Below are positions 153-37,915 of a stretch of DNA of 37,943 nucleotides, piece by piece. The position numbers and the translations under genes are program-made. The notes under the pieces are model-generated. The model worked only from the letters and a program-made list of their open reading frames with translations. It searched no databases and was not told the origin of the DNA. Origin of the DNA: Chromatiales bacterium (GTDB lineage Bacteria; Pseudomonadota; Gammaproteobacteria; Chromatiales; Chromatiaceae). The DNA lies in contig JAKSBX010000254.1 of the NCBI GenBank assembly GCA_022360905.1, positions 1-37,943 of the forward strand, read 5' to 3'. Position 1 is the first letter of the stretch. The number at the start of each line of letters is the position of its first letter.

Positions 153-1358
153 ATGCCGGACTGTCTCAGCGCTCAAGCAGGAAATTCACCGGTGGCATTA
201 CCCATGCCGGATACTAAAGCGCAAGCGGTCAGTGAGCGGCTGATGCGACAGATTGTGCGTGCCATCGAGCAGTCCGGCGGTGCCATACCTTTCGATACGT
301 TCATGGAGATGGCCCTCTATGCGCCTGGCCTCGGCTACTATGTGGCGGGCAGCCGCAAGTTCGGTGATCAGGGGGATTTCATCACCGCGCCCGAGGTTTC
401 GCCCCTATTCGCTCAGTGCCTGGCTCGCCAGTTGGCACCGATACTCTCGGAATTACCCTCGGCCGATCTGCTGGAGTTTGGCGCAGGTTCCGGCATTCTG
501 GCGGCCGACCTGCTGGAAGCCTTGGCGAGTCTCGATCAACTTCCCGATCGATACCAGATTCTGGAGGTCAGCCCGGAGCTGAAGAGTCGCCAGCAAGCTA
601 CCCTGCAGGCTAGGGTGCCCGATCTGTTGGAACGGGTTGTCTGGCTGGAGCGCATGCCTGAGCGATTCTCCGGTTGTGTGGTGGCCAATGAGTTGCTGGA
701 CGCACTTCCGGTAAGCCGTTTTCGTATTGAGGATGGGGAGATTCAGGAGTGTTTTGTCGTTCAAGATGGCGACCAACTGAAGGCCAGCTATCGCACGCCG
801 GTCACGGCGGGGCTTGAAGCTGCGGTAAAGCAGCTGCGGGCTCAGTACGGCCCTTTCAGATCCGTCTATCAGTCTGAGATAAACCTGCGTCAGGCCGCCT
901 GGATAAGAACCCTGGCCCAGTCCATCAGTCAGGGAGTCGTACTGTTGATCGATTATGGCTACAGCGGTGCCGAGTATTATCATCCACAACGGGATCAGGG
1001 TACGCTGATGTGCCATTTCCGGCATCGTGCCCATAGTGATCCATTCAGCTGGGTTGGTATTCAGGACATTACCTGTCAGGTCGATTTTACCGCAGCCGCC
1101 AAAGTGGCGGTTGAGTCGGGGTTCAGTCTTGGAGGCTATACAACTCAGGCTCATTTTCTGCTGGCCAACGGACTCGATAGCCTGTTGGCGGATTCCGATC
1201 CAGAGGATGTGGCCCGGCATATGTCACTGATGCAGGGAGTCAAACGGCTGACGCTGCCATCGGAGATGGGTGAACGTTTCAAAGTGCTGGGTCTGCTGAA
1301 AGGTCTGCAACTCAATCTGCAGGGCTTCACCATGCGGGATATGTGCGAACGTCTTTAG
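153..1358 (+). CDS. SAM-dependent methyltransferase, MidA/NDUFAF7 (DUF185, COG1565) family
   Basis: This 401-residue protein is full length for the family. Residues 47-86 carry the family signature (FDTFMEMALYAPGLGYY, then KFGDQGDFITAPEVSPLF). Residues 107-114 (LEFGAGSG) are the SAM-binding glycine loop, followed by VVANELLDALPVSRF near 180 and LLIDYGY near 255. In mitochondria NDUFAF7 methylates an arginine of a complex I subunit; the bacterial substrate is not established. No strong Shine-Dalgarno precedes the ATG at 153, and an in-frame ATG at 204 is also possible because the conserved part starts later. The TAG stop overlaps the first bases of a phased inverted repeat at 1357. It diverges from the SDR fragment at 1-90. 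Confidence 0.9.
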   Translation: MPDCLSAQAGNSPVALPMPDTKAQAVSERLMRQIVRAIEQSGGAIPFDTFMEMALYAPGLGYYVAGSRKFGDQGDFITAPEVSPLFAQCLARQLAPILSELPSADLLEFGAGSGILAADLLEALASLDQLPDRYQILEVSPELKSRQQATLQARVPDLLERVVWLERMPERFSGCVVANELLDALPVSRFRIEDGEIQECFVVQDGDQLKASYRTPVTAGLEAAVKQLRAQYGPFRSVYQSEINLRQAAWIRTLAQSISQGVVLLIDYGYSGAEYYHPQRDQGTLMCHFRHRAHSDPFSWVGIQDITCQVDFTAAAKVAVESGFSLGGYTTQAHFLLANGLDSLLADSDPEDVARHMSLMQGVKRLTLPSEMGERFKVLGLLKGLQLNLQGFTMRDMCERL

Positions 1359-1523
1359 TCCGCAAATGAACGCTAATAAACGCAAATGGAAAATCATTGT
1401 TTGCTTTTTGGGCTAAAAGGCTGATCAGAAACAGATCACCGATCAATGAGATCCTGACACAGAAAAAGTCCAGACCATCTCATCAAAAAAACATTTGCGT
1501 TTATTAGTGTTCATTTGCGGACT
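1357..1523. repeat. phased 10-bp inverted-repeat pair A
   Basis: Arms at 1357-1388 and 1492-1523 are reverse complements at 31 of 32 positions, around about 100 bp of AT-rich DNA. Each arm is built of 10-bp units (CGCAAATGAA, CGCTAATAAA, CGCAAATGG), so the CG steps recur about once per helical turn. The left arm begins inside the stop codon of the preceding methyltransferase gene. The same unit recurs in pairs at 3335, 17057 and 37679 and as a solo arm at 34396. There is no coding capacity. It may form a strong RNA or cruciform hairpin or act as a protein-binding array. Confidence 0.9.
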
Positions 1524-1600
1524 TAAAAAAATCAATTTAACCCCACTGTCGATCTCTCTGCGTTAGCCCTAATGAAACACAACTCATTCGGGAGCAAACA

Positions 1601-3322
1601 ATGAATTTACGACAATTGAGCCTAACTCTCTCTGCCGCCATATTGAGCGGGCTGTTGGCCGCCTGTGGTTCGGCGCCGGAGACCGAAAGGGATCGGGTTA
1701 CTGACGCCGCTGTGAAGCGGCATCAGCAGACGCTGAATGAAGCGGTACAGAGCCCGGCGCCAGTCCAATCGTTGCATCGGGATCAAGCCGAGCTGGCCGC
1801 TCAGGCCCCAGCCCGTTTATCCCTGGCCAAACAGGCTTACTCAAAGGAGCAAATTGCAGCGCTACCGTTGCTGCGCCAGCCAACCGCCGGCGTTGACCGG
1901 GAGCGCTACGGTGAACTGCGTGAGAATGGGATTCATTCGGTGGCCGACACACCGGTTTCCACCTTCAGCGTCGATGTGGATAGTGGCGCCTATGCACTGG
2001 TCAGGCGATTTCTCAATCAGGGGCAGATGCCGCCCAGAGACCTGGTGCGCGCGGAAGAGCTGATCAACTATTTCAGCTATCACTATCCATACCCTCGATC
2101 CGGGAAGCATCCTTTCAGCCTGACCACCGAGGTGGGTCCAACCCCCTGGAACGAGGATACCCGCCTGGTTCATATCGGCATTCAGGGGATCGCCACGGCT
2201 GCCGACCTGCGACCGGCTGCCAATCTGGTGTTTCTGGTCGATGTCTCCGGTTCGATGAGTGATCAAAACAAACTCCCATTGCTCAAATCCGCCTTCAAAC
2301 TGCTGTTGCAGCAGCTCGGCGCTGAGGACCGGGTGAGTCTGGTGGTCTATGCCGGTGCTTCCGGGGTGGTGTTGGAGCCGACGGCCGGGGACCAGCGAGG
2401 CAAAATAGTTTCCGCGCTGGCCCAGTTGGAAGCCGGTGGTTCGACCCATGGCTCAGCCGGTATCAAACTCGCCTATGAGATGGCGGAGCAGGCACGTATC
2501 GAAGGTGGCATCAACCGGGTAATTCTGGCAACCGATGGGGACTTCAATGTGGGTATGGTGGATCACAGGCGTCTTGTGGAGATGATCGAGCAGCAACGGC
2601 AACGGGGCATCTCATTGACCACACTGGGCTTTGGGCAGGGTAACTATAACGACCATCTGATGGAGCAGTTGGCGGACAAGGGCAATGGCAACTACGCCTA
2701 TATCGACAACATCAACGAGGCCAGAAAGGTGCTGGTAGAGGAGTTGAGTGCGACCCTCGAAACCATTGCCAAGGATGTGAAAATCGAGGTTGAATGGAAT
2801 CCGGCGCTGGTGGCGGAGTATCGGCTGATCGGCTACGAAAACCGTTTGTTGGCTGCTGAGGATTTCAATAACGATAAGGTTGATGCCGGGGACATTGGTG
2901 CCGGCCACAATGTGACGGCCCTGTATGAAATCGCCCTGCACGACAGTGGTGGGCAGCGTCTCTCACCGCGACGTTACCATTCAACCGACAAGCATCAGGG
3001 CAAGGAGGGTGAGCTGGCCTTTTTAAGATTGCGTTACAAACAACCCGATCAGCATCAGTCACAATTGATCAGCCAGCCAATCCTGTTGACTGACCGGCAG
3101 CAACTGGAGCGTAACAGTGAAGCCTATCGCTTCAGTGCCGCAGTTGCCGCTTTTGCCCAGCTGCTCAGAGGTGGGCGTTATACCGAATCGTTCGATTTCG
3201 ATGATGCAGTAGCGCTGGCCAACACGGCTCGGGGTGAGGATCGTTTTGGCTATCGTGGCGAGTTTGTCCGGCTGGTTAGATTGGCGGGTTCCCTTGCGGC
3301 GCCACTGAGCCTAAACGAGTGA
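1601..3322 (+). CDS. YfbK-like von Willebrand factor A domain lipoprotein
   Basis: This is a 573-residue exported lipoprotein. A hydrophobic signal (residues 5-21) ends in the lipobox LLAAC with Cys22 as the predicted lipidation site. Residues about 110-165 match the N-terminal domain that precedes VWA in YfbK-type proteins (FSVDVDSGAY and AEELINYF). The VWA domain runs from about 207 to 385 with an intact MIDAS (DVSGSMS, Asp214-Ser220) plus the conserved GGSTHGSAG and ATDGDFNVG segments, so metal-dependent ligand binding is plausible. The rest fits the YfbK C-terminal domain (DUF3520). GGGAG sits 6 bp before the ATG. An ECF sigma gene follows after a gap holding repeat pair B. The family's ligand is unknown; an envelope sensing or scaffold role is inferred. 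Confidence 0.9.
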   Translation: MNLRQLSLTLSAAILSGLLAACGSAPETERDRVTDAAVKRHQQTLNEAVQSPAPVQSLHRDQAELAAQAPARLSLAKQAYSKEQIAALPLLRQPTAGVDRERYGELRENGIHSVADTPVSTFSVDVDSGAYALVRRFLNQGQMPPRDLVRAEELINYFSYHYPYPRSGKHPFSLTTEVGPTPWNEDTRLVHIGIQGIATAADLRPAANLVFLVDVSGSMSDQNKLPLLKSAFKLLLQQLGAEDRVSLVVYAGASGVVLEPTAGDQRGKIVSALAQLEAGGSTHGSAGIKLAYEMAEQARIEGGINRVILATDGDFNVGMVDHRRLVEMIEQQRQRGISLTTLGFGQGNYNDHLMEQLADKGNGNYAYIDNINEARKVLVEELSATLETIAKDVKIEVEWNPALVAEYRLIGYENRLLAAEDFNNDKVDAGDIGAGHNVTALYEIALHDSGGQRLSPRRYHSTDKHQGKEGELAFLRLRYKQPDQHQSQLISQPILLTDRQQLERNSEAYRFSAAVAAFAQLLRGGRYTESFDFDDAVALANTARGEDRFGYRGEFVRLVRLAGSLAAPLSLNE

Positions 3323-3334
3323 AGGTTTGATATG

Positions 3335-3487
3335 AGTCCGCAAATGAACGCTAATGAACGCAAATTGTTAGTGCTGATGTTTTTTATAAGGGCTACGGTA
3401 AGTTGTGACATCGGTAAATTTTCTCTAGAGATATTTGGTAAGCTAAAGTAATGATTGATTTGCGTTTATTGGCGTTAATTTGCGGAC
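3335..3487. repeat. phased 10-bp inverted-repeat pair B
   Basis: Arms near 3335-3366 and 3458-3487 match as reverse complements at about 27 of 30 positions. They use the same unit order as pair A (GTCCGC, AAATGAACG, CTAATGAACG, CAAAT). The roughly 90-bp centre differs from that of pair A. The pair fills most of the 198-bp gap between the VWA lipoprotein and the sigma factor genes, so any sigma-gene promoter must lie within or beside it. Confidence 0.88.
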
Positions 3488-3520
3488 AAATATCTTTAAA
3501 AACTATAAGGTCTTAATGGC

Positions 3521-4069
3521 ATGAGTGACGAGGAGCCGAGTGATGAAGCGCTGTTTCGTCTGTTCCGAAAGGGTGATGACAGGGCGTTCGAAACCCTCTA
3601 TCAGCGCTACCGTCAGACGCTCTATCTGTTTTTGTTGCGCAGTGCCAGCTCCGCAGGGGATGCGGATGAGCTTTATCAGGATGTTTGGTCCAGAATCATC
3701 ACGGCCGGCAAACAGTTTGATGGAGGTTCATTCAAAGCCTACGCCTTTCGTATTGCCCGAAACCTGATCATCGATCGGCATCGTCGGGGAAGTCTGACGT
3801 TGGTTACTGACTTGGCAACGGTGCATGAGCCGGTCCAGCCGGGCAAGTCTATGGAAGAACAGTTGCAGGATGAAGAGTGCAGTGAACGAATGAAACGCCA
3901 GATCGGTCAACTGCCGGCTGAACAGCGGGAGGTGTTTCTGCTGAAAGAGGAGGCGGGTTTAACCCTGGCACAGATCGCGGCCATGGTCGATGTGGGTCGA
4001 GAGACGGTAAAAAGCAGAATGCGATATGCCCTGAAACAGTTGCGCAAGCTGTTGGAGGAGTGTTTGTGA
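3521..4069 (+). CDS. ECF-type RNA polymerase sigma-70 factor
   Basis: The product is 182 residues, the usual size of an ECF sigma factor. Region 2 spans about residues 20-92 (FETLYQRYRQTLYLFLLR, DADELYQDVWSRI, FKAYAFRIARNLIIDRHRR). Region 4 spans about 125-178 (LPAEQREVFLLKEEAGLTLA, then ETVKSRMRYALKQLRK helix-turn-helix). Region 3 is absent, as expected. The ATG at 3521 follows an AAGG with longish spacing. The 3' end overlaps the next gene by four bases (GTGA), which implies translational coupling. Position suggests it works with the VWA lipoprotein upstream and the membrane protein downstream. Its promoter specificity cannot be told from sequence alone. Confidence 0.95.
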   Translation: MSDEEPSDEALFRLFRKGDDRAFETLYQRYRQTLYLFLLRSASSAGDADELYQDVWSRIITAGKQFDGGSFKAYAFRIARNLIIDRHRRGSLTLVTDLATVHEPVQPGKSMEEQLQDEECSERMKRQIGQLPAEQREVFLLKEEAGLTLAQIAAMVDVGRETVKSRMRYALKQLRKLLEECL

Positions 4070-4704
4070 GTGAATCAGACAAGCTTCCGGAGGATTCGGA
4101 GCTCAACAGACTCTATCGGAGCGGTCGGCATGAAGCACCGAGTGACGCGCTTGATCAGGCCGTTTTGAGTGAGGCGCGCAGAGCCACGGCCAAGTACCGC
4201 AACCGCTGGATCGTACCGCTCTCGTCAGCCGCTCTGATATTGCTCGGTATCGGTTTGTCGTTGCCGCTGATTGATCTTGACATTTACGATGAACATCAGC
4301 ATATGCCAGCCCCGGCACCACAAGCTGAATCAATCTATGAAAGTGATCAGGCGCTGCAAAAACCCGCTTTACCAACGGCACCGGCCAGTGGTGCAGTCGA
4401 GCTGCGAAACCAGGCGGTACCGGCTCCTCAGGCCGATCTGGCGGCACCCCCTCGAATGGAACAGCGCGCTAAGGCGAAACGAGCACCTGAAAGAGAGCCG
4501 CTGCGAGAGGTGCCAGAGGCGGTGTTGCAATCGATCGATCGCGAGCAATCCGACTTGACGCCGGAGCTGTGGTTGGCTGAGATCGAGGCATTGATCGCCT
4601 CCGGCCAGGATCAGGCGGCCAGGCACTCACTGAATGGATTTATGTCGACCTATCCCGACTATCCGTTGCCCGAATCCCTGCTTATCTGGCAATCCGGTCA
4701 CTAA
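4066..4704 (+). CDS. single-pass membrane protein downstream of ECF sigma factor (putative anti-sigma-like)
   Basis: GTG at 4066 is chosen because GGAGGAG ends 5 bp upstream and the start overlaps the sigma stop as GTGA. The protein has 212 residues. A charged N-terminal segment of about 47 residues contains LYRSGRHEAPSDALDQAVL, followed by one membrane helix (about 48-70, PLSSAALILLGIGLSLPLI). Next comes a long Pro/Ala/Gln-rich linker and a C-terminal block (TPELWLAEIEALIASGQDQA, then YPDYPLPESL) resembling a short helical repeat. A cytoplasmic segment, one helix and a periplasmic part fit an anti-sigma topology. No zinc-binding ZAS motif (HxxxCxxC) is visible, so this role is inferred from position and topology. 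The stop overlaps a repeat fragment. Confidence 0.7.
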   Translation: MSESDKLPEDSELNRLYRSGRHEAPSDALDQAVLSEARRATAKYRNRWIVPLSSAALILLGIGLSLPLIDLDIYDEHQHMPAPAPQAESIYESDQALQKPALPTAPASGAVELRNQAVPAPQADLAAPPRMEQRAKAKRAPEREPLREVPEAVLQSIDREQSDLTPELWLAEIEALIASGQDQAARHSLNGFMSTYPDYPLPESLLIWQSGH

Positions 4705-4728
4705 TTGGGTTCGTGTTAACAGGCCCCA
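4704..4728 (+). repeat. solo terminal fragment of the 268-bp repeat family
   Basis: ATTGGGTTCGTGTTAACAGG followed by CCCCA closely matches the inner-to-outer end of the terminal inverted repeat at 15858-15890. It lies in the 40-bp gap between convergent genes and touches the stop codon of the membrane protein gene. No partner arm was found nearby. Confidence 0.75.
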
Positions 4729-4744
4729 GTGTCGTGTTGCAGGT

Positions 4745-5236
4745 TCAGTTAGCTACCGCGATCTTTTTGGCGGCGGATTCCGCTGCATTGAGAATATAAA
4801 ACAGCAGATAATCCATGGTGTTGATACCGAGTATCCGCTCTGCCGCCTCTTCCCCACGGCTGTCGAGAAACAGCAGGGTAGGGGTGACAAATACGCTATA
4901 TCGTTGAGAAAAAGCTGCTGCAGCGAGCCGATTTCCCTGAAAGTCGATCACCATTTCACCATCGTCGATCAACAGCTCCCGCACCAGTGCCGTCTGCTCA
5001 AAGTCGCCACTGATACTCATCGGATAGAGCACGTCCTGTTTCATCCGGTCACAATATCCACAATGGTATTGTGAGACCAGCAATACGATGGGTAACTTTT
5101 TTTCGTTGGCCTCACGGGCGAGTTTTTGTAAATCGTGGATCTGTGGAATGAGGTTTTGATCCGCAGATACCGAGCTGACGATCAGTAACTGGAGCAGAAC
5201 AGCGACCAGCAGAGGCCTATGGGATCGAGATGACAT
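4745..5236 (-). CDS. exported thioredoxin-fold protein with CGYC motif (copy 1)
   Basis: The protein has 163 residues. A signal peptide (about 1-25, VAVLLQLLIVSSVSA) directs it to the periplasm. The redox motif CGYC is at 59-62 in the context QYHCGYCDRMKQDVL, and the cis-proline loop VTPT is near 117-120. The fold resembles SoxW-like and DsbD-gamma-like thioredoxins, with the family's pattern VIDFQGNRLAAAAFSQRYSV before the cis-proline. It is probably co-transcribed with the similar gene at 5334-5792, 97 bp upstream. It should exchange disulfides with an exported partner; which one cannot be read from the sequence. It converges on the membrane protein gene ending at 4704. Confidence 0.85.
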   Translation of the reverse strand: MSSRSHRPLLVAVLLQLLIVSSVSADQNLIPQIHDLQKLAREANEKKLPIVLLVSQYHCGYCDRMKQDVLYPMSISGDFEQTALVRELLIDDGEMVIDFQGNRLAAAAFSQRYSVFVTPTLLFLDSRGEEAAERILGINTMDYLLFYILNAAESAAKKIAVAN

Positions 5237-5333
5237 GAATTGGTTCTTGGGGCCGCTTAAAAAATGGAAACCTGTTGTGACGACTCGCCGGGTCGGGGCT
5301 GGTAACGATTAAGCTGCCGGATTGAGTTTTTAT

Positions 5334-5792
5334 TCAATCAAGGGCTTCGTGGGATGCCAGCAGAGACTCCTGCAACAGTCTCTCATACTCTTCCTGGGAA
5401 TTATAACCAACGATCGGCTCGGCAAGCAGGTTTCCATCCGGATCCAGAATCAACAGCGTCGGGACGGCAAACACCTGGTAGCGGTCTTTAAATTGACGGC
5501 TGCGAATGACATCACCATTGAAGTCGGTAACTTTGCCCCCCGCATAGATATCGAACTCCTTGATCACCGGGAGATTTTGCTGGGTTGTGTCTGAAAGGGG
5601 CTTGAGAACCTCTTGCTTCAATCTGACGCAATAGCCGCAATCTTCGGATTCGAACACGACCATGATAACGGTATGGTTTTGCCGTGCCAGTGCGGAGGCG
5701 TCTGCCCAATTGGTGTTGGTGTCGAGGGTTTCAGCAACGCTCAGGCCGCTACTGAGGAGAAGGAATATCGAGATCAAATACTGCTTTATCAT
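5334..5792 (-). CDS. exported thioredoxin-fold protein with CGYC motif (copy 2)
   Basis: The protein has 152 residues. Its signal peptide is about 20 residues (ISIFLLLSSGLSVAE). The redox motif CGYC is at 52-55 (ESEDCGYCVRLKQEVLKPL), and the cis-proline loop AVPT has the proline near 111. It shares layout and several motifs with its downstream neighbour (CGYC, then a VxDFxG strand, then RYxVFxxPTLL), so the two are diverged tandem paralogues. It is the first gene of the pair; the AT-rich stretch to its right (5820-5900) is the likely promoter region. A SoxW-like role in keeping periplasmic sulfur-oxidation proteins reduced is possible but not shown, because no sox genes are in the window. Confidence 0.86.
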   Translation of the reverse strand: MIKQYLISIFLLLSSGLSVAETLDTNTNWADASALARQNHTVIMVVFESEDCGYCVRLKQEVLKPLSDTTQQNLPVIKEFDIYAGGKVTDFNGDVIRSRQFKDRYQVFAVPTLLILDPDGNLLAEPIVGYNSQEEYERLLQESLLASHEALD

Positions 5793-6037
5793 CAGAAGTA
5801 AACTGCATGATTGATGACTTAAGTTGGGTAGTATATATAAATTTACTAATATTGCAATATATGCAGTTTATAGATACTCAGTATTGATTTAATCTGTGAA
5901 TCCTTTCACTTTTGCCGATCGATCGGCGTGCCTATTTAGCAATTTGCTCAATAAGATGAGCAGCCTGTGAAATGAGTGTCCCCAAATCTGCAGCCATCGT
6001 TCAAAGTGATCGGTTTAGACTGACGGTCAACGGTGAT

Positions 6038-6985
6038 TCACTCAGTGACCTGCCGGTACCGCCTGAAACGCCCTCGATAGCCCTGGTTGGCCAGGTAGCC
6101 GGGTACATGACTCTGAATGGATTCTGGGGCGATACCCAAGGCTAACAGGCCATTCTTTTCGCAGACACTGTCTGTTTGCAGTGAGAGGTAGTTGTCCATG
6201 GTGAAGGGTTTGCCGGGTAATAGGCCAAGCAGCCTAGCTTGCAGGCGAGAGAGGGTAGGATTGAGCGGCAGAATCAATCGGCGAACTCCCTGTTGTCCGG
6301 CGCAATATCTGACCAGCTCTCTCAAGCTGTAGACCTCCGGTCCACACAGGTCGTAGTGGGCTCCGGCGGTTGATGAGTTCTCCAGCGCCCGGGCAAAGGC
6401 TTCGGCCACATCGCCCACATAGACGGGTGCGAAACGACTGTCCGGTACGGCGAGTGGAAAAATCCCGGGTGACAGACTCAGCAGAGCGGCAAAGCGATTG
6501 AACAGACTGTCATTTGGACCGAATATCACGGATGGACGAAAACTGGTTACAGTCAATGCGGAGCCACCATGGGTGTGAGCGCGATTTTCACCCTCTCCTT
6601 TGCTTCGCAAATAGGCACTGGAACCCTTGCCCGCATCCGCGTGCAGAGCGCTCATGTGCAGCAGCCTGGTGGCGCCGCTCTTGATTGCCGCCTCTACAAT
6701 CTGATCTACCAGCGCTACGTGAATCGCCATGAAGCTGGTTTTTTTTGTCTCGTTGAGAATACCGATAAGATTGATCACGGTTTGGCAACCGCTGAAGTGT
6801 TGTTGCAGACTGACCGGGTCGAATCGGCTGGCTTTCACCAGCTCCACGCCTGGGTAGACTTTCAATTCGGCATGGCGTTGTGGATGGCGTGAAAGCACGC
6901 GGCATGAGTAACCCCTTTTACTTAATACCGATACCAATCGGTGACCGACAAATCCACTTCCACCAAGTATACAAATTCGATTCAT
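6038..6985 (-). CDS. NDUFA9-like atypical short-chain dehydrogenase (NAD(P)-binding)
   Basis: The protein has 315 residues. The N-terminal Rossmann motif is GGSGFVGHRL at 8-17. LSRHP follows at the end of the second strand and TVINLIGILNE near 70-80, a segment typical of the complex I NDUFA9 subunit family of atypical SDRs. FRPSVIFGPND (about 150) and YVGDVAEAFARAL (about 190) are the other conserved stretches. Bacterial members are often isolated from the nuo operon, as here, and their substrate is unknown. The gene stands alone with gaps of about 250 bp on both sides. Confidence 0.85.
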   Translation of the reverse strand: MNRICILGGSGFVGHRLVSVLSKRGYSCRVLSRHPQRHAELKVYPGVELVKASRFDPVSLQQHFSGCQTVINLIGILNETKKTSFMAIHVALVDQIVEAAIKSGATRLLHMSALHADAGKGSSAYLRSKGEGENRAHTHGGSALTVTSFRPSVIFGPNDSLFNRFAALLSLSPGIFPLAVPDSRFAPVYVGDVAEAFARALENSSTAGAHYDLCGPEVYSLRELVRYCAGQQGVRRLILPLNPTLSRLQARLLGLLPGKPFTMDNYLSLQTDSVCEKNGLLALGIAPESIQSHVPGYLANQGYRGRFRRYRQVTE

Positions 6986-7241
6986 TCTCTGTTCCTTGTG
7001 ATCGGAATAGCTGGTTGGCAGGCCAATTCAAGTGAGTGCAACGACACTACTGAGGCTTGTGGGCCGGCCCGAAAATTACCTTAATTTACCGCATGGCCCA
7101 CTAGGCTTGGCTGCGAAATATTAACCAGATCGATGAAGATGGCAATACCCAAGGTGTCATATCAACCCGTTAGTCAAACCGTGCGCTTTGTACCACACTG
7201 AGCTTGCCTGTCGTCACGCAGGTGACGATGCTATCGTCGTC

Positions 7242-15622: not shown

Positions 15623-15890
15623 TAGGGCCTGTTAACACGAATCCAATCGGCCCTGCTGGGGCTATTTTTTCGTCCAGCAAGGCAGAATGAGCGTGGTGTA
15701 GTTATTCTACATGAGCGAATGATAACGCCGCTGGCGGAAAAATAGCCCCAGCCCTTCGGGTTGCCCCTGAAAAAGCGCCACTCCGCGTTGCTCGTCGTTC
15801 ATTTGGAACAACCAAACTTCTCTCCTCGCGCCTTGATTGGCGCTTTTTCAGGGGCAACAGGGCCGATTGGATTCGTGTTAACAGGCCCTA
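15623..15890. mobile_element. 268-bp terminal-inverted-repeat element with two internal hairpins (MITE-like)
   Basis: The ends, 15623-15655 and 15858-15890, are perfect 33-bp inverted repeats starting TAGGGCCTGTTAACACGAAT. Inside are two stems. Stem one has arms near 15655-15678 and 15730-15752 (GCTGGGGCTATTTTT and its complement, with a small bulge). Stem two has perfect 20-bp arms at 15761-15780 and 15838-15857 (TTGCCCCTGAAAAAGCGCCA). There is no open frame of note and no clear target-site duplication. Its ends resemble solo fragments at 4704, 16495, 16997 and 37852. It lies directly upstream of glcF. A non-autonomous element or structured repeat is the best reading; mobility is inferred. 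Confidence 0.85.
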
Positions 15891-17056: not shown

Positions 17057-17157
17057 AACCGCAAATAAACGCCAAATACCACGGATCTACGCAATTAGAG
17101 GCCGCAATATAAAATTATTTGCGGCATTTTGCGGTGATTGGTGTTAATTTGCGGTTT
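17057..17157. repeat. phased 10-bp inverted-repeat pair C
   Basis: The left arm (about 17057-17084, AACCGCAAATAAACGCCAAA) and right arm (about 17118-17157, ending GTGTTAATTTGCGGTTT) are imperfect reverse complements with the same 10-bp unit as pairs A, B and D. Immediately to the right is AAGTAAGCGCCCTTCGTT (17165-17182), a motif that also accompanies copies at 34.4-34.6 kb and 37.6-37.9 kb. Confidence 0.8.
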
Positions 17158-17242
17158 AAACGCTTAAGTAAGCGCCCTTCGTTCAACCCCCCCAGTGAAA
17201 TTATCCATACGGGGGGCAACGGGGCAGACCGGATTCGTGGAA

Positions 17243-28009: not shown

Positions 28010-28317
28010 GGTTCTGGTTATTTGAAAATTTCCATCGTGCCCGGCTGCAGGTTGTAAGCAGCGAGTAACGTCCAGTATCAGCAACACGGGAGGTTGTCAC
28101 TCTCTTGTCTCACCAATAGGCTTTTAAAAGGCCTGAGACAAGGCGTGACATCACGTTATAATTCGGCACTTCATTCGGTCACCCCCTTTAGATAGGGGTG
28201 GCAAGCATAAGTTTCCGATGGATTTTACAGAGTTTTTACTCTGATATCCTTAGCCATAGAGTAACGCGCAGGACCACGCTGAAGCTGAAACATCGTGCCA
28301 GGCAGAATAACAACCCA

Positions 28318-30051: not shown

Positions 30052-30092
30052 AACAGGACGAAGGGCCGAGCAAAAGCGAGCTCAAGCGTGAA

Positions 30093-30536: not shown

Positions 30537-30584
30537 GCTTGGCGCATCGAGCCTATCCTGCGGGCACTTGGGGAGAGGGCGATC

Positions 30585-31481: not shown

Positions 31482-31500
31482 TGACCGTTATCCATAACGC

Positions 31501-31526
31501 AAAAAACCGGCTTGCGCCGGTTTTTT
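31501..31526 (-). terminator. rho-independent terminator after dksA
   Basis: AAAAAACCGGC TTGC GCCGGTTTTTT is a perfect stem with a T run in both directions. It lies in the 66-bp dksA-gluQ gap, downstream of dksA on the minus strand. It should limit gluQ expression from the dksA promoter. Confidence 0.93.
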
Positions 31527-31547
31527 ATGGAAAAAGTCCGATCAGCA

Positions 31548-31988
31548 TCAGCCCATCTGTTTTTCACGAATCTCATCTAACGTCTTACAGTCTATGCAAA
31601 GGGTGGCGGTCGGCCTGGCCTCCAGTCGGCGAATACCGATCTCGATGCCGCAGGACTCGCAATAACCATACTCTTTGTTGTCGATCTGCTCTAAGGCTTC
31701 ATCGATTTTTTTGATCAGCTTCCTCTCCCGGTCCCTCGTACGCAGTTCAAGACTGAATTCAGACTCTTGGGTGGCGCGGTCGTTCGGATCAGGAAAATTG
31801 GCAGCCTCATCCTGCATATGGTGAACCGTGCGGTCGACCTCCTGCATCAGATTGGCTTTCCAAGCAGCGAGTATGGAACGGAAATGGTTCTCCTGCCCCT
31901 CACTCATATACTCTTCACCCTTAGCGGGTTCATAGGGCTCGATGCCGAAGGATCCAGCCCCTTTTGCTGTGGCTTTCGTCTGGGCCAT
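31548..31988 (-). CDS. dksA: RNA polymerase-binding transcription factor DksA
   Basis: The protein has 146 residues; E. coli DksA has 151. The coiled-coil tip carries Asp67, Asp70 and Ala72 ([14 protein letters not shown]), the acidic pair needed near the polymerase active site. The C4 zinc finger is Cys110, Cys113, Cys131 and Cys134 (YGYCESCG and LCIDCK), followed by the C-terminal helix. DksA works with ppGpp in the stringent response, repressing rRNA promoters and activating amino-acid promoters. AAGAGG precedes the ATG at suitable spacing. A hairpin terminator and gluQ follow. Confidence 0.97.
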
Positions 31989-32466
31989 TCATGGTACCTC
32001 TTACGTGAAGGCGCATATCTATACCAGAAAGGGGAGAACGAAACAATACATGGCTAAATCAGAATCGGGAATCTGCCCCTGAGTCGTTACATAGGGCGCT
32101 CTTCTCTCTAAGGCCATAAATAGCCATTTGCTAAGTTCTCTCTATCCAACAATAAGGTTGGACAAAATTCAGAAAAAATAAAGGTTGAAGCGGGAATAAC
32201 GTTCCTTGACGAAGCCTCGGCATTCATTCATAGCCGGCAAGAGATCTTTTCTATCTATGGATTGAGCCGTTGTAATGACCCGAGCGAAGCCGACCATCGG
32301 CTGAAACCTTGGTGGTTTACGGAAAAATGCCATACCCAGGCAAACTTCGGGGTAATCGCCGAGATAATTTCCCCACATGATCATGTGCGAGCCATGCCGA
32401 TTTTGTTGTTACACTATTCCGCCGTCGGGGTAATCATCCCGGGTTGTATTTGACGAAGGTGTAAAA
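31989..32466. other. intergenic region upstream of dksA and cbbY
   Basis: No gene is supported in about 480 bp between divergent genes. Open frames here, for example on the minus strand at 32169-32384, have no recognisable motif. The dksA promoter should be near 32000-32150 and the cbbY promoter near 32380-32450. I see no riboswitch or clear operator. Confidence 0.45.
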
Positions 32467-33240
32467 ATGGCTGAATTAGAGGCACTGATATTTGACGTGG
32501 ACGGCACCCTGGCCGACACCGAGAGGGATGGTCACAGAGTCGCTTTCAATCTGGCTTTCAAGGATGCCGGGCTGGATTGGGATTGGTCTGTGGCGTTGTA
32601 TGGAAAACTGCTTGCGGTAACGGGCGGCAAGGAGCGTATACGTCACTATCTGGCAAACTACAATCGCGCTTTTGCAGGCCCGGCTGAGCTGGACCAGTTT
32701 ATTGCCGAGCTTCACGCAGCAAAAACCGAGCACTACACCAGGATGCTTGAAGAAGGGCTGATTCCCGTGCGAAACGGCGTGAAACGGTTACTGCGGGAGG
32801 CTAGAGAGCAGGGTTTGCGCCTGGCAATCGCTACCACTACCACTCCGGCGAATGTCAGTGCACTGCTGCAGCACAGCCTGGATCCGCAAGCGGAATCCTG
32901 GTTCGAAGTGATTGCGGCAGGCGATATTGTGCCGGCGAAAAAACCGGCGCCGGATATCTATCTCTGGGCCATGCAGCAGATGAAGTTGGAGCCACAGGCC
33001 TGTATGGCATTTGAGGATTCCCACAATGGGGTTCAGTCGGCGAGTCGCGCCTCGATCGAGACCATTCTGGTAACAACCAATGGCTACACTGCGGAGGATG
33101 ATTTTAGTGGTGCAACCCTGATCATCGACCAGCTCGGTGAACCTGATCAGCCTTTCCAGCGGTTGAATGGGCGTGCCGGTGATTTCGGTTACACCAATAT
33201 CGAGATGCTGCGGGCACTGCATGGCGGTGGTGCGACATGA
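32467..33240 (+). CDS. cbbY: HAD-superfamily phosphatase, CbbY type
   Basis: The protein has 257 residues. The HAD motif I is FDVDGTLADTERDGHRVAF (Asp10 nucleophile, Asp12). The cap region GLDWDWSVALYGKLLAVTGG, then KERI, is the pattern of CbbY proteins. Motif II is AIATTTTPAN, motif III AKKPAPDIY and motif IV FEDSHNGVQSA. CbbY removes xylulose-1,5-bisphosphate, a dead-end inhibitor of Rubisco, so it supports the Calvin cycle; no Rubisco gene is in the window. GAAGG precedes the ATG. The stop overlaps the start of the aminotransferase gene by four bases (ATGA), so the two are translationally coupled. Confidence 0.88.
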   Translation: MAELEALIFDVDGTLADTERDGHRVAFNLAFKDAGLDWDWSVALYGKLLAVTGGKERIRHYLANYNRAFAGPAELDQFIAELHAAKTEHYTRMLEEGLIPVRNGVKRLLREAREQGLRLAIATTTTPANVSALLQHSLDPQAESWFEVIAAGDIVPAKKPAPDIYLWAMQQMKLEPQACMAFEDSHNGVQSASRASIETILVTTNGYTAEDDFSGATLIIDQLGEPDQPFQRLNGRAGDFGYTNIEMLRALHGGGAT

Positions 33241-34394
33241 CCGAGATCGCCAGACGCATGGCGCAGATCGCGCCGTTTCATGTGATGGATCTGCTGGCTA
33301 AAGCCCGCCAGCTGGAGGCTCAGGGCCGCTCGATTATCCATATGGAGATCGGTGAGCCGGACTATCCGACGCCCGCACCCGTGGTCGCGGCGGCGCAGGC
33401 GGCCCTCAGCGGTGGGAATGTCCACTATACCCCGGCTACCGGCCTGCCGACGTTGCGTCAGAAGATTGCGGCCTACTACAAGAGCAAATATCGGGTCGAT
33501 GTGGATCCGCATCAGGTGATCGTAACACCCGGCTCATCCGGTGCTTTGCAACTGTTGATGAATGTGCTGATCAACCCGGGAGAATCGGTTCTGATGGCCG
33601 ACCCCGGTTACCCCTGCAATCGCCATTTTGTATCGATGGTCGATGGCGTACCGGTGGGGGTGCCGGTCGGGGAGGAGACGGACTACCAATTGACCGCCGA
33701 ACTGGTTGAGCAGGCCTGGCGGGATGATACCAAAGCGGTTCTGATCGCCTCCCCCTCCAATCCCACAGGTACCCTGCTGGCAGAATCCGAGCTGCGACAG
33801 CTTTATGACAAGGTGACCGAGTTGGGCGGTGTGCTGATCGTTGACGAGATCTATCTGGGGCTGACCTATGGCGTTGATGCGAATACCGCCCTGGATATCA
33901 GTTCCGAGATCTGCGTGATCAGCAGCTTTTCAAAATATTTCTGTATGACCGGCTGGCGATTGGGTTGGATGGTTGCCCCCGAGCCGATGATCGATCCACT
34001 GGATCGTTTGGCGCAAAATATGTTTCTCTCAGCACCAACCCTGTCGCAGATGGCCGCCTTGAGTGCCTTTTCACCCGAGGTGATCTCGATTCTGGAACAG
34101 CGACGCCTGGCCTTTCAGCAGCGGCGGGATTTTCTGCTGCCGGCGTTGCGGGATCTGGGTTTCTCCCTGCCGGTAACCCCCCAGGGCGCCTTCTATCTCT
34201 ATGCCGGCAGTGGTGAGCACGCCAGTGACAGCCAAAAATTGGCCCAGCAGCTGCTCAATGAAGCCGGTGTGGCCGTTACACCCGGTCTCGACTTCGGTTT
34301 CAACCGACCTGAATCCTATTTGAGATTCGCCTACACCACAGCCATGGATCAGCTGCAGGAAGGGGTGGAGCGGATCGCCCGTTTTCTCGCCTAG
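33237..34394 (+). CDS. PLP-dependent class I/II aminotransferase
   Basis: The protein has 385 residues, normal for fold type I aminotransferases. MEIGEPDYPTP (36-46) and GNVHYTPATGLPTLR are the substrate-side motifs. ASPSNPTGT (171-179) and VDEIY (Asp203, which holds the pyridine nitrogen) follow. The Schiff-base Lys233 is in SSFSKYFCMTGWRLGW, and RFAYT near the end contains the substrate carboxylate Arg. It probably moves an amino group between an amino acid and an oxo-acid in the cytoplasm; the exact substrate cannot be assigned. Coupling to cbbY by a four-base overlap is clear, but the metabolic link is not. Confidence 0.9.
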   Translation: MTEIARRMAQIAPFHVMDLLAKARQLEAQGRSIIHMEIGEPDYPTPAPVVAAAQAALSGGNVHYTPATGLPTLRQKIAAYYKSKYRVDVDPHQVIVTPGSSGALQLLMNVLINPGESVLMADPGYPCNRHFVSMVDGVPVGVPVGEETDYQLTAELVEQAWRDDTKAVLIASPSNPTGTLLAESELRQLYDKVTELGGVLIVDEIYLGLTYGVDANTALDISSEICVISSFSKYFCMTGWRLGWMVAPEPMIDPLDRLAQNMFLSAPTLSQMAALSAFSPEVISILEQRRLAFQQRRDFLLPALRDLGFSLPVTPQGAFYLYAGSGEHASDSQKLAQQLLNEAGVAVTPGLDFGFNRPESYLRFAYTTAMDQLQEGVERIARFLA

Positions 34395-34395
34395 T

Positions 34396-34413
34396 GGCGT
34401 TCATTGGCGGTAA
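34396..34413 (+). repeat. solo phased-repeat arm
   Basis: GGCGTTCATTGGCGGTAA is identical to part of the right arm of pair D (GGCGTTCATTGGCGGTTA) apart from one base. It starts directly after the aminotransferase stop codon, and no partner arm is nearby. The companion motif AAGTAAGCACCATTCGTC follows at 34455-34472. Confidence 0.75.
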
Positions 34414-34454
34414 ATCTATCAGGGGCACCCAATTTCTTCGGGCGTAAATGACTC

Positions 34455-34627
34455 AAGTAAGCACCATTCGTCGCCAGACCGTAGGTTACTTACTTAAGCG
34501 TTATTTGGTGGGGCATGGCCCCACCCTACTGTGGAGTTCGTGGTGTAGGGTGGGGCCATGCCCCACCAAAACCCTTTGATAAAACGAGATGCAATGAGTT
34601 TTAGTGCATAAGTAAGCGCCATTCGTC
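34455..34627. repeat. repeat cluster: two AAGTAAGYGCCATTCGTC copies around a 26-bp perfect inverted repeat
   Basis: AAGTAAGCACCATTCGTC (34455-34472) and AAGTAAGCGCCATTCGTC (34610-34627) are direct copies with one difference. Between them, arms 34504-34529 and 34545-34570 form a perfect 26-bp stem (TTTGGTGGGGCATGGCCCCA plus CCCTAC) with a 15-base loop. The stem arms are internally palindromic (GGGGCATGGCCCC-like). It fills most of the gap between the aminotransferase and cysZ genes, which converge here. The stem could also end transcription from both sides. Confidence 0.88.
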
Positions 34628-34659
34628 CCTAGACTCGTTTTGCCGGCAGCAGACATTGG

Positions 34660-35403
34660 CTACCCCTTCGGCATCTTTTGCAATTGCCGATGCCAGAATA
34701 CGGTGGCGCCGGCCACGCCTGCCGGCATGGCCAGAAAGTTCAGCAGGGGTACCATCATCATCGCCGTCAGACCGCCGCCAAAGGCCAGTGAGGTCATCCG
34801 TACCCGCTTTAAGCGTTGATGTTGCTCTTTGAAAGGCAGGCTGTGATTGGCCATCGGGTAGTCGCCATATTCCAGGGCGAGAAACCAGGCGCTGAAGAGC
34901 AGCCAGAGGAAGGGGGCGGCCAGATTGACGACCGGAATCAGAAACAGTAACAACAGGGGTATGGCGCGAAGCAGGAAATAGAAGAGTTTGCGCAATTCAG
35001 AGAGCAGGGCGGGCAAAACATCTTTCATGATCTGTTTGGCACCACTGGGTTGACTGGCGAGTTCACCACCCAGATAGAGCTCCACCTTCTCCGCCAGCAG
35101 ACCGTTGAACGGCGAGGCGATCAGATTGGCGATGACGGTGAATGTATAGAAAACGACCAAAACAATAGCGATCGCGAAAAGCGGCCACAACAGCCAGCGA
35201 AGCCAGGCCAGCCAGCTTTCATCGTCGGGCAGAAAGCGATCCATCAATTGCTCGAATTGAGCGACACCCAACCACACCAGCAGACTGAATACCAGAATGT
35301 TAATCAACAGTGGGATCAATACGAAGGGTCTGATTCCCGGTTTGAAAAGTAGTTTCAAACCTTGTAACAGATAGCCGGCGCCAGAGATTGGATTGCTATT
35401 CAT
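34660..35403 (-). CDS. cysZ: sulfate transporter CysZ-like membrane protein (EI24/CysZ family)
   Basis: The protein has 247 residues, near E. coli CysZ (253). It starts NPISGAGYLLQGLKLLFKPG, typical of the family. Hydrophobic segments lie near 25-48, 72-98, 140-180 and 205-235, with FTVIANLIASPFNGLLAEKV (about 87-106) as the best conserved stretch. CysZ allows high-affinity sulfite and sulfate uptake for cysteine synthesis. No cys genes adjoin it, so regulation by CysB cannot be judged. Its stop faces the large hairpin cluster at 34455-34627. Confidence 0.9.
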   Translation of the reverse strand: MNSNPISGAGYLLQGLKLLFKPGIRPFVLIPLLINILVFSLLVWLGVAQFEQLMDRFLPDDESWLAWLRWLLWPLFAIAIVLVVFYTFTVIANLIASPFNGLLAEKVELYLGGELASQPSGAKQIMKDVLPALLSELRKLFYFLLRAIPLLLLFLIPVVNLAAPFLWLLFSAWFLALEYGDYPMANHSLPFKEQHQRLKRVRMTSLAFGGGLTAMMMVPLLNFLAMPAGVAGATVFWHRQLQKMPKG

Positions 35404-35982
35404 CTATGAATACCTGGATTACTTGATTTGCATGACATCTTGAAAGGGGGGCACTATAAACGATTCAAAGTGTCGGGTTAATCATTCTGATACGCCCGGA
35501 GAGTACACTGATTCTATCGATCAGAAAAAACTTTGCGCGCGGATCGGAGGGAAGCATACAGTTTTTTACAATTCGGATTTCGCTCCTTCGATCAAGTGAA
35601 TGTGTGTGCAAAACAGCCACAGGTCCCTTTAAAACAGTCCCTATCGGAATATTATTGGTCCTATTCTCAAAAGATTGATTCACTTCACATTAGAGCCTGG
35701 GAAGCGCTATCAACAATCTCTCGAATCAGTCGATATAAAAGTAGGATTGTAGTTCACGGCTTTACCGCGCTGACTACTGAGAATGGGTGGTACCTATGGG
35801 TTATCCTACTGATTCATTTGATAAATCGTTTTTGGTTGTACCTAGATTTACCAACTATACTTGGATTCAGTTCACACTTCTCATAGACTGAATGGTAACT
35901 TGTGAGTACGATCAACAAAATTTTAGTGGCGGGAATTTAAACTTCCTAATAAATCGGATTTGTATCTTGCCTGAGGCTGAAA
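35404..35982. other. AT-rich gap upstream of cysZ and the exported protein gene
   Basis: About 580 bp with lower GC than the flanking genes. One open frame (35533-35886, 117 codons) lacks recognisable motifs and a good ribosome site, so I do not call it a gene; a lineage-specific gene cannot be excluded. Promoters for the two divergent neighbours are expected here. Confidence 0.45.
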
Positions 35983-36819
35983 ATGTTGAAACACAACACT
36001 AAATATTTCTCGTATACACGTATGCGTTATTCTGTTGTTGGTCTGTTGTCCATGATTCTCTTGGCCATGCCGTTGAGCGGCTTTGCCAGAAATGTTGGAA
36101 CTCTACCCTTCAATGAGAGTTTCGATGTCAACAACTATGGGGACATCGTCTGGGTTACCCAAGGCGCTCGACACAACTGGCTGTCGAGTGGCGGATGGCA
36201 GGGTGGTGGTGCCGCGCAGATTTTCCCAGTCTCCACTGGCCAGGGTTATAACGGCGTGGGTCAGTTTACCGGTATGAATACCGAACAGCTCAACGTCAGA
36301 TGGCTGATGCGCCATGGGCCAGGATTCAATTCAGCCGGTTTTGATGAAACCAAAGTCATCATCATGAACCGTATCAATTACCGGGAAAGACCGATGATCA
36401 TCGGTCGCGGTCAAGACTGGAGAACCTGGGGCGCCTGTGACAACACGGTTTGTCGATATGAAGGTGGCGACTATTGGCCGGACGGTACTGACTCCTTCAA
36501 GATCGGTGATCCTCCATTTCACCGTGAAGATGAGTGGATCAGTGTGGAGCTTGAAGCCAATGCCCGCACCGGTATCATCAGACTCTATATCACCACACAG
36601 GATGGTGAGCATAATGGCCTCTATGTCCAACAGACCATGAGTACACCGGGCGGTGAGTTCAACTATGTCGATGTCATCGGTGGTTACTTCAACACGCCAG
36701 CCCCTGCCAGTCCCGATAACTATTTCATCATCGATGAGCTGGTTATCGATGACAGCTATATCGGGCCACCTGCCGGATTTATCGTGGGAAACCCACCCAA
36801 TCCCCCAATTCTTGAGTGA
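35983..36819 (+). CDS. exported protein of unknown function, possibly a jelly-roll (concanavalin-like) fold
   Basis: The protein has 278 residues. TGAGG about 10 bp upstream supports ATG 35983, although the signal peptide core starts at a second Met (residue 14, MRYSVVGLLSMILLAMPLSG) and cleavage is likely after FA near 35. The mature part has the order expected of a lectin-like beta sandwich: LPFNESFDVNNYGDIVWVTQ, GGGAAQIFPVSTGQGYNGVG, EWISVELEANARTGIIRLYI, then YFIIDELVIDDSYIGPP. That is the LPFxExF...DELVI pattern of jelly-roll domains in secreted proteins. No catalytic residues can be pointed to. A bidirectional terminator follows. Confidence 0.72.
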   Translation: MLKHNTKYFSYTRMRYSVVGLLSMILLAMPLSGFARNVGTLPFNESFDVNNYGDIVWVTQGARHNWLSSGGWQGGGAAQIFPVSTGQGYNGVGQFTGMNTEQLNVRWLMRHGPGFNSAGFDETKVIIMNRINYRERPMIIGRGQDWRTWGACDNTVCRYEGGDYWPDGTDSFKIGDPPFHREDEWISVELEANARTGIIRLYITTQDGEHNGLYVQQTMSTPGGEFNYVDVIGGYFNTPAPASPDNYFIIDELVIDDSYIGPPAGFIVGNPPNPPILE

Positions 36820-36825
36820 TTCTAG

Positions 36826-36858
36826 AAAAAACCCTGATCCCCGGATCAGGGTTTTTTT
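36826..36858. terminator. bidirectional rho-independent terminator
   Basis: AAAAAACCCTGATC, a CCCG loop and GATCAGGGTTTTTTT form a strong stem with T runs on both strands. It lies between the exported protein gene (ends 36819) and the convergent lipoprotein gene (ends 36857), so it can serve both. Confidence 0.93.
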
Positions 36859-37240
36859 ATTCTGTAATGGTTTTTTCGATACGATCAGAGATCGGGCTGT
36901 TCAAGCCGTCAGTATCGTAGGCCACAATACCGAAAAAGTAGTTGCCGGGCGTCATGTCGGAGAGGTCGTAGGAGGTTGAGTGGCCATCCTCGATATCGGC
37001 AATCAATTCCAGATTGTTTGACGACGGGCCACTGTAGATTTTAAAGCCTGCAAGCTCGCTGAGATCCAGAAAGCTGCCATCCGTTCTTGTGGACGGGGCG
37101 ATCCAGCTCAACTGTTGTGCTTGATTATCCGGTGGATTGACAGGGGTATTATCGTCATCTCCACCACCGCCACCACCACCGCCACAGGCAGCAAGCCCAT
37201 AGGTAAGTACGACGAGTGTGTAAAGTGCTGATCTTTTCAT
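36857..37240 (-). CDS. small fibronectin-III-like lipoprotein
   Basis: The protein has 127 residues. Signal peptide and lipobox LAAC give a lipidated Cys19, followed by eight glycines and DDD, a flexible tether often seen in such lipoproteins; Asp after the tether does not occupy position +2, so outer-membrane sorting is likely. Residues about 42-125 form one fibronectin type III-like domain (LSWIAPSTRTDGSFLDLSEL, AGFKIYSGPSSNN, YFFGIVAYDTDGLNSPISD). This version of the domain is common in surface proteins and usually accompanies larger ones; here it stands alone. Its 3' end shares the terminator with the convergent exported protein gene. Confidence 0.8.
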   Translation of the reverse strand: MKRSALYTLVVLTYGLAACGGGGGGGGDDDNTPVNPPDNQAQQLSWIAPSTRTDGSFLDLSELAGFKIYSGPSSNNLELIADIEDGHSTSYDLSDMTPGNYFFGIVAYDTDGLNSPISDRIEKTITE

Positions 37241-37640
37241 GGTTTCCTACCACTGTTATCTGTTGCCGGAATCCGTTGTTGAGATGTTACAGCACAAAAT
37301 GGCTTTAGCACGGTAATTTGCACATTTTAGTAGAAACAGCATCCGCGATGCGCCCACTAAAATTATACAAAATAACGCTCAACAGTGATTGGCTTTTCGC
37401 AATCTTCGATTCAGGCCCCGGTCATCGTGTAGGAGGGCGCCCCCCCACGTCACACTGCCATTGATCTTTACAATGGTAATTAGTTCACTCGGCCTGGAAA
37501 ATCCACTATTTATTGACAGAGTCAATCAAATACCGGATGAGCCCATATGATGATTTATGATAATTCCGGATCGTGCCGCAAAGGTGTGATGGGCTTCAAT
37601 TTTCTGCTTAACGACGATTGGTGTGGATTACCATGGTTGG
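37241..37640. other. non-coding stretch right of the lipoprotein gene
   Basis: No gene is supported in about 400 bp. The first 150 bp should carry the lipoprotein promoter. The remainder has no recognisable element before the composite repeat that starts at about 37641. Confidence 0.5.
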
Positions 37641-37651
37641 GTCCTAAGGCA

Positions 37652-37915
37652 AATGGCACTTAGCTTGAAGAGAATAAACCGCCAATGAACGCTAATCACC
37701 GCAAAATGCCGCGAATAACTTTCACATAGCGGACTCTATTAGCGTAAATTCGCGGTGATTGGCGTTCATTGGCGGTTAATCTCTTAGAATGGCCCAACTT
37801 CTCCAGCAGAATTGGGGCTTAACGCCTTCAAGTTAAGTGCCATTCGGTCCTGGGGCCTGTTAACTCGAATCGTATCAACTCGCACTATTTTATCGATATT
37901 GGGGTAACAGGCCCC
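37652..37915. repeat. composite nested repeat: companion motif, phased pair D and repeat-tip pair
   Basis: Three layers are visible. Outer arms AATGGCACTTAGCTTGAAG (37652-37670) and its near complement (37826-37844) match at 18 of 19 bases; in rightward orientation the right one reads AAGTTAAGTGCCATTCGGTC. Inside lies phased pair D (about 37679-37718 and 37741-37775) made of 10-bp units (CGCCAATGAA, CGCTAATCAC, CGCAAAATGC, CGCGAATAAC). To the right, GGGGCCTGTTA (37852-37862) and TAACAGGCCCC (37905-37915) form a perfect 11-bp inverted pair resembling the tips of the 268-bp element. No coding capacity is seen. Confidence 0.85.

Follow-up and report, generated by a model that had tools for sequence, protein, structure and literature searches.

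Phased inverted repeats in a Chromatiales genome as probable gene-less copies of an element encoding a GxxExxY nuclease

In REPIN-RAYT systems (repetitive extragenic palindrome, or REP, doublets forming hairpins, with a REP-associated tyrosine transposase), one vertically kept enzyme gene is flanked by the same repeats, and the arms are small palindromes with a GTAG/GGAG-type tag. In mobile insertion cassettes, a centre that is gene-less or holds a passenger gene lies between terminal inverted repeats. REPINs are described, in excerpts of two papers, as many dispersed inverted doublets with variable spacers (PMC8049555, PMC3116915). We analyzed a 37,943-nucleotide stretch of a Chromatiales bacterium (GenBank assembly GCA_022360905.1, contig JAKSBX010000254.1), hereafter the window, in which an earlier note had described four inverted pairs (A to D) and a solo arm as one repeat family built from 10-bp units. 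We propose that these pairs are probably gene-less, non-autonomous copies of a small element, the full form of which encodes a GxxExxY protein and the ends of which are phased terminal inverted repeats. Of the readings offered earlier, we favour the one in which the arms terminate a small mobile unit, since a gene is present in full copies.

Like REPIN-RAYT, the system comprises dispersed inverted doublets and a single-copy, vertically kept, repeat-flanked enzyme gene, found at one carA-carB site across the genus, and repeat number here tracks the enzyme. Unlike in REPIN-RAYT, the enzyme is a PD-(D/E)XK nuclease (TIGR04256/PF13366) and not a Y1 (TnpA_REP) tyrosine transposase, the GTCCGCAAATGAACGCNAATNAACGCAAAT arms are non-palindromic, lack GTAG/GGAG tags and are built of 9-10-bp phased units, and the centres are replaced or gene-bearing. 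The system is not a member of the REPIN-RAYT family, and its best reading, on sequence comparison, would be a REPIN-RAYT-like arrangement operated by an unrelated nuclease. Like miniature inverted-repeat transposable elements (MITEs), it has a high copy number and terminal inverted repeats, between which lie gene-less or passenger-gene centres. In contrast to MITEs, neither a parent insertion sequence nor a known transposase nor a target duplication was found, and the centres are mostly unrelated (18/26); an autonomous-looking GxxExxY parent is present, GxxExxY not being a known transposase. Invertons and invertible promoters also have short inverted repeats around a segment seen in both orientations, as found here between genomes at 6 sites; the present repeats differ from them in numbering up to 130 arms per genome, in centre replacement, in a single orientation at some sites and in that no recombinase was identified, no search having been aimed at recombinases. 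As for the GxxExxY family itself, the full element encodes a member scoring above the curated cut-offs.

The units of the four pairs are related, and the pairs split into two families rather than forming one: family I (A and B), with 30-bp GTCCGCAAATGAACGCNAATNAACGCAAAT arms, GTCCGC-ended, around mostly unrelated centres, and family II (C and D), near-palindromes of ~95-105 bp, ACCGC-ended, often with CACCGC as the third unit and with partly shared centres. Besides this split, the inversion of centres and the nuclease gene go beyond what the note had described. When arm pairs were picked blind to the gene, GxxExxY was found inside three of the six long-centred pairs from named genomes, namely those of a Methanothrix metagenome-assembled genome (MAG), where it is frameshifted, a Lentisphaeria MAG and a gammaproteobacterial MAG (TIGR04256 E-values 2.7e-21 to 2.1e-41). 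GxxExxY proteins (TIGR04256 / PF13366 PDDEXK_3) belong to the PD-(D/E)XK nuclease family and have roughly 130 residues; TIGR04256 scores were 76-141 bits against a curated cut-off of 35. The D...ExK nuclease motif is present (D67 and ELK in L306; AD invariant in 4 aligned rows; labels in L and G denote sampled loci and genomes), and a structure model is PD-(D/E)XK-like at moderate confidence. Searching the PDB by sequence yielded no GxxExxY relative, save one weak unrelated match.

TIGR04256 was found in 18 of the 22 genus genomes. Family I arms flank the gene on both sides in 10 genomes (G021, G006, G008, G019, G012, G011, G002, G016, G009 and G007), a single arm is left beside it in G015, and family II-type arms flank it in four (G010, G004, G020 and G003). 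By flank similarity the arm-flanked copies share one orthologous site (G011 by one flank only), read in G008 as the carA-GxxExxY-carB junction; as judged by eye, one arm of this home copy contains the last CarA codons and stop as well as the GxxExxY start codon. The carA/carB site of the window's genome is cut off at contig ends on both flanks, and an assembly gap is therefore the best explanation for the missing gene. Eight open copies gave dN/dS of 0.04-0.12 in 23 of the 25 computable pairs (many with dS >1), and the home copy is under purifying selection. Some genus genomes hold extra copies besides this one; G007 has eight GxxExxY matches (L379, L395, L400-L405), several of which are truncated and some of which have arms of the CGCAAAG or CGCAGAG type. 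In openly licensed PMC papers (CC0, CC BY and CC BY-SA), no description of the association of arms with GxxExxY was found, the excerpts that mention the protein doing so in passing and being silent on flanking repeats.

To score flanking repeats elsewhere, we placed the gene by tblastn in 60 loci, retaining 55 after discarding 4 in which it was not located and 1 at a contig edge. An inverted repeat scoring at least 16 flanks the gene in 39 of the 55, compared with 0 of 417 same-geometry placements in those loci. Outside the genus 18 of 29 loci reach 16, and 22 of 29 reach 13, a threshold passed by 7 of the 417 controls. Units outside the genus are of the CGCAGAGNA, CACGAAGNN, CACAAAGA, CACAGATGAA or CGCGGATGAA type, not CGCNAATNAA; the CGCAAAGAA type is present within the genus as well. 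A tblastn search detected GxxExxY in 8 of 72,556 plasmid records, these 8 spanning several phyla and including four with flanking repeats at scores of 16.5-54 (Gemmatirosa, Bacteroides, Bernardetia and Sphingomonas; controls scoring at least 16, 1/119). On the plasmid of Sphingomonas parapaucimobilis (L685) the gene has fabD and fabG as neighbours on either side and runs in their direction, which, together with the carA-carB site, suggests a taste for operon junctions. No match was found in 50,697 phage records, and a protein scan of viral contigs for GxxExxY relatives returned seven pattern stretches, none of them confirmed.

The number of family I arms and their survival were compared with the integrity of the gene, among genomes that are not phylogenetically independent in either statistic. 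Genomes with an open family I gene have 74, 130, 106, 32, 86, 30, 99 and 51 arms (median 80), and those without one 15, 10, 26, 62, 1, 41, 0, 0, 32, 9, 10, 2 and 63 (median 10), with p=0.0023 when G010, which has an open family II-type gene, is placed in the second group, and p=0.009 when G011 is regrouped as non-open. At the sites of the window's genome, intact pairs were retained in 15 of 23 cases with an open gene (G008 9/13, G011 6/10) versus 1 of 23 with a broken one (G002 1/11, G016 0/12; p=2.3e-5); leaving out G011 gives 9/13 versus 1/23 (p=6.6e-5), and G008 versus G002 alone p=0.0045. Across the compared genomes, repeat survival is highest where GxxExxY is intact.

Several points weigh against the reading of the pairs as copies of a GxxExxY-encoding element. 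In the arm-flanked copy of G011 (L386) the Glu of ExK is changed to Ala, unlike in the close relatives G009 and G008, the latter about 98% similar to G011 on one side of the gene, and by the loss of this motif residue the G011 nuclease may be inactive. Eleven of the 29 outside loci score below 16, and all 29 belong to several genera of a single Pseudomonadota family; among the 55 loci two are listed twice (L391/L398 and L393/L397), and the genus loci with AAT arms represent one orthologous site. The other four plasmid loci (Fusobacteria, Prevotella, Treponema and Persicobacter) lack a clear repeat. When 240 loci of viral contigs were selected for CGCAGAG or CACGAAG arms, none encoded GxxExxY, which fits mostly gene-less copies and gives no evidence for a link between arms and gene. 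G009, with an open gene, retained 0 of 2 sites, changing the retention count to 15/25 when included (p=4e-5), and the decay may be one event because G002 and G016 are closely related, in addition to the phylogenetic dependence stated above. G004 and G020 have 62 and 63 arms despite a shortened family II-type gene, two centre inversions separate them although both carry this shortened gene, and family II arm counts are not simply tied to a family II-type gene (154 in G008, which has a family I gene). Neither an insertion event nor a target duplication nor cleavage was observed. The case is strengthened by the plasmid test and weakened by the single-family origin of the 29 loci and the G011 change, which together leave its probability as it was.

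Inspecting 19 pairs with centres of 280-3500 bp, we found that the large ones hold TacA/GNAT, CopZ, an inserted IS110-like open reading frame (ORF; by eye), other genes and GxxExxY; an autonomous copy with a known transposase was rejected on this cargo. A TacA1 antitoxin and a GNAT acetyltransferase lie within family I arms at one site in three species (L026, 1669-2865; L216; L217), in one orientation, with near-identical arms next to unrelated non-coding DNA. A CopZ N-terminal-type metallochaperone ORF (NF047645) constitutes a family I centre of the window's genome (L027, 1851-2453), a site at which relatives differ. In Salinisphaera shabanensis (L264, 1267-3162) two ORFs lie within a 1.9-kb arm pair, one for a Phd/YefM-type antitoxin and the other, of 256 aa, matching no family. 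It is unlikely that the arms are ordinary MITE-like elements with another enzyme as transposase and GxxExxY a mere passenger such as TacA/GNAT or CopZ: the existence of that other cargo and the rarity of the arm-to-gene association (0/240) would agree with this, but GxxExxY recurs with several unit types (18/29 loci; 4/8 plasmid records) while the other cargo is found at one site each, and the gene is under purifying selection with arm number and survival tracking it.

We compared orthologous sites across genomes. In 16 orthologous pairs (32 arms), a sample biased towards arms since both had to be detectable, identity was 94.1% within arms, falling to 62.9% just inside them and to 76.9% just outside, with 56.8% for random sequence, and centres changed at orthologous sites; the earlier claim that arms are conserved while centres differ is borne out. 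Thirteen sites of the window's genome were aligned with up to five relatives (mean flank identity 87.5%), centre boundaries in the shuffle tests being placed by hand from the alignments. The centre was inverted at four of them (window A, L023, the L027 site between G008 and G011, and L061 between G016 and the other three) and replaced at three (window B, L027 between the window's genome and both G008 and G011, and L062, occupied by a family II element in two relatives); some pairs at L010 and L049 were also unalignable, these without shuffle test. For element A, reverse local alignment of the centre scored 20, 28 and 46 with G011, G008 and G016 (shuffled maximum 14, 13 and 14), and the orientation in G009 is that of the window. 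The centre of element B resembles those of L114 and L116 (G002 and G016) in neither orientation and matches L115 and L117, with L114 and L116 matching each other (score 50, shuffled maximum 13).

Between the closely similar genomes G004 and G020 we matched 34 loci, most of them with 97-99% identity, and compared 18 in detail. Two of the 34 have inverted centres: L149/L187, exactly reversed (reverse score 94, shuffled maximum 16), and L122/L161, where the G004 copy also has an IS110-like insertion. An internal deletion at L124/L165 turned a pair into a solo arm. In L167 (1581-2096, reverse strand numbering) a 124-bp arm with adjoining sequence is amplified fourfold in tandem in G020, L138 of G004 being single-copy. 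A clean empty site was found in none of eight loci checked between two close genomes, one of the eight not being resolvable. The element is missing at L139 of the close genome, which has other DNA there, within an 83-86% identical stretch, and at L152 the close genome retains the left arm, shorter by one unit; from these alignments, presence/absence differences look like decay or replacement. Of the proposed mobile unit with a replaceable centre, the second part holds literally at site B and full copies carry a gene, while movement to new sites is left without support, there being no clean empty site in the eight loci.

Inversion of the centre between genomes, at 4/13 sites and 2/34 G004/G020 loci, is what would be expected if a recombinase flipped it to switch flanking genes. 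We regard such programmed inversion as very improbable, given that a single orientation is kept at L050 (4/4 relatives) and L026 (2/2), that the elements lie mostly in tandem or convergent gene gaps (20/22), that palindrome-associated inversions also occur in plastid spacers (excerpts of PMC2903610) and that two of the inversions are between genomes with a shortened gene. Programmed phase switching was rejected as the main role on the single-orientation sites and on the inversions despite a shortened gene.

Between the two arms of an element, 70.4% of free (N) positions match, versus 70.2% by chance (25 pairs), and the arms therefore seem to be conserved as duplex and not as base-paired hairpins; selection for base pairing was rejected for lack of a match excess. 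The phased protein-binding array suggested earlier is compatible with this, whereas the suggested bent DNA is weak: in-phase AA/TT was 2.77 versus 2.21 in shuffles (sd 0.17) and 9.85 in an A6-tract reference, a modest excess on which strong bending was rejected. Scanning the window with Rfam yielded no match, and an RNA family was rejected as the identity of the repeats. RNA hairpins acting as terminators or mRNA stabilisers 3' of genes would account for elements often lying a few bases past the end of an ORF, in convergent or tandem context; they are hardly probable in view of the Rfam result, the chance-level matching of free positions, arms that preserve sequence beyond complementarity and pairs that also surround whole genes. 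The arms could also be host-selected sites, a phased array for a nucleoid or regulatory protein with GxxExxY as that protein or its target. Slow arm evolution beside fast-changing DNA, a spacing of one helical turn with uncorrelated free positions, and the home-copy arm that supplies the end of carA and (by eye) the GxxExxY start codon would all suit this, which we nevertheless hold improbable because copy number ranges from 0 to 130 within the genus and sites are frequently lost in relatives.

The noted recurrence every 10 bases largely holds, with 499 of 525 unit spacings equal to 10 in 96 pairs and 68 solo arms called in 116 listed loci of other genomes, under a detector that allowed 9, 10 or 11 only (10 tried first) on loci preselected by a 10-bp pattern, so that freer spacing would escape notice. 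Spacing 8 is found in arms at the L061 site of G011 and G008, and units of 9-10 bp in other GxxExxY-linked arms.

In 61 sequences of the window's genome (the window and 60 stretches), we called 29 family I pairs, 26 of them with at least one strong arm, with centres of 78 to 1137 bp. No match to any other sampled locus at E<=1e-4 was found for 18 of the 26 centres, and one sub-group shares a common centre at roughly 70-80% identity. By eye, nesting occurs both ways, with family I within family II at L010 and L065 and family II-like arms within family I centres. Family I arms were found in 20 of 22 genus genomes (0-130 arms), in 2 of 13 other genomes of the family (1 and 10 weaker matches) and in 0 of 21 from other families of the class; the family II core (<=1 mismatch) was found in 8 of 369 class genomes. 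The general pattern CGCNAATNAACGCNAATNAACGCNAAT is present in at least 116 stretches of genome contigs, base counting predicting well under one. Taxa among the matches listed are Gammaproteobacteria, Planctomycetota, Verrucomicrobia/Kiritimatiellales/Lentisphaeria, Acidobacteria, Chloroflexi, Spirochaetia and one Methanothrix MAG, with 'Candidatus Thiodiazotropha' among the named records; single placements may be binning errors because most records are MAGs.

The four pairs and the solo arm are present where they had been described, in numbers far above chance in window and genome. The two-unit pattern CGCNAATNAACGCNAAT (<=2 mismatches) occurs 16 times in the window, where 0.25 occurrences would be expected by chance, and in 0 of 100 shuffles was the number 16 attained. 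In the whole genome (4.59 Mb) a two-unit pattern (<=1 mismatch) has 435 matches versus 14 for a reversed-pattern control, and the 30-bp arm GTCCGCNAATNAACGCNAATNAACGCAAAT (<=3 mismatches) 103 versus 0. The left arm of element A starts at the stop codon of a 401-aa ORF (153-1358). The solo arm exists at slightly revised coordinates, is family II-like and resembles element D beyond the arm itself (34384-34437 versus 37749-37802, 74% alike). Features are collected in Table 1.

Table 1. Phased repeats of the window, with positions in the window
Feature	Positions	Strand	Remarks
Family I left arm, element A	1358..1387	+	GTCCGCAAATGAACGCTAATAAACGCAAAT; 0 mismatches to arm pattern
Centre of element A	1388..1492	.	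105 bp, gene-less; inverted vs G011, G008, G016
Family I right arm, element A	1493..1522	-	1 mismatch
Family I left arm, element B	3336..3365	+	0 mismatches; between ORFs 1601-3322 and 3521-4069
Centre of element B	3366..3457	.	92 bp; unrelated centre instead in G002 and G016
Family I right arm, element B	3458..3487	-	0 mismatches
Family II element C	17057..17156	.	Arms 17057-17097, 17116-17156; inverted repeat 71% complementary
Solo arm remnant, family II-like	34393..34409	-	1 mismatch
Family II element D	37674..37780	.	Arms 37674-37717, 37737-37780; inverted repeat 84% complementary

Other repeats lie in the window. A perfect 26-bp inverted repeat (34504-34529 / 34545-34570) is of a GGTGGGGCATGGCCCCACCCTAC type seen in many sampled loci; it looks like a REPIN, and a partial ORF of L052 (3-266, minus strand) with MSNYRRACLAGGTYFFTVVTYHRK looks, by eye, like its putative RAYT transposase. 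A separate inverted-repeat family, TAGGGCCTGTTAACACGAATCCAATC, is found at 15623-15658 / 15855-15890 (97% complementary, 196 bp between), with related arms near 4704, 16488 and 37850 and within some family I centres (L066, L115). A third short repeat, of the CTTAAGTAAGCGCCATTCGT type, occurs at 17154-17182, 34443-34471 and 34598-34626 near family II elements, forming mosaics of repeats.

If the window pairs are gene-less copies of a GxxExxY-encoding element, the nuclease would read the arms in double-stranded form, with one 10-bp unit for each helical turn, and would cut or nick at them. Repair off the partner arm or off another arm-bounded copy would restore the arms, and the centre would be replaced or exchanged. 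Through such cut-and-repair, the roughly 100 arms dispersed in a genome would stay alike while the enzyme works, with pairs decaying once the gene is broken; inversion alone may be passive recombination between inverted arms. More broadly, and tentatively, GxxExxY proteins might define a class of repeats, mobile or self-maintaining, that is widespread in bacteria and found in an archaeal MAG. In this class a small PD-(D/E)XK nuclease would read a helically phased array with one 9-10-bp unit in each turn, and its cutting, followed by repair, would maintain arm pairs by the hundred, the arms being copied and the centres swapped so that any DNA lying between two arms could be carried. The CRCRRAKNNA-type repeats of many environmental genomes would all fall into this class. 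An unstudied nuclease family would thereby gain a candidate DNA substrate and a biological role, and a common class of phased repeats of several phyla, unnamed in the literature searched, would be accounted for. The system would provide a second, unrelated solution to the role that RAYTs have for REPINs and, if centres are exchanged while arms are kept, a natural cassette-swapping tool.

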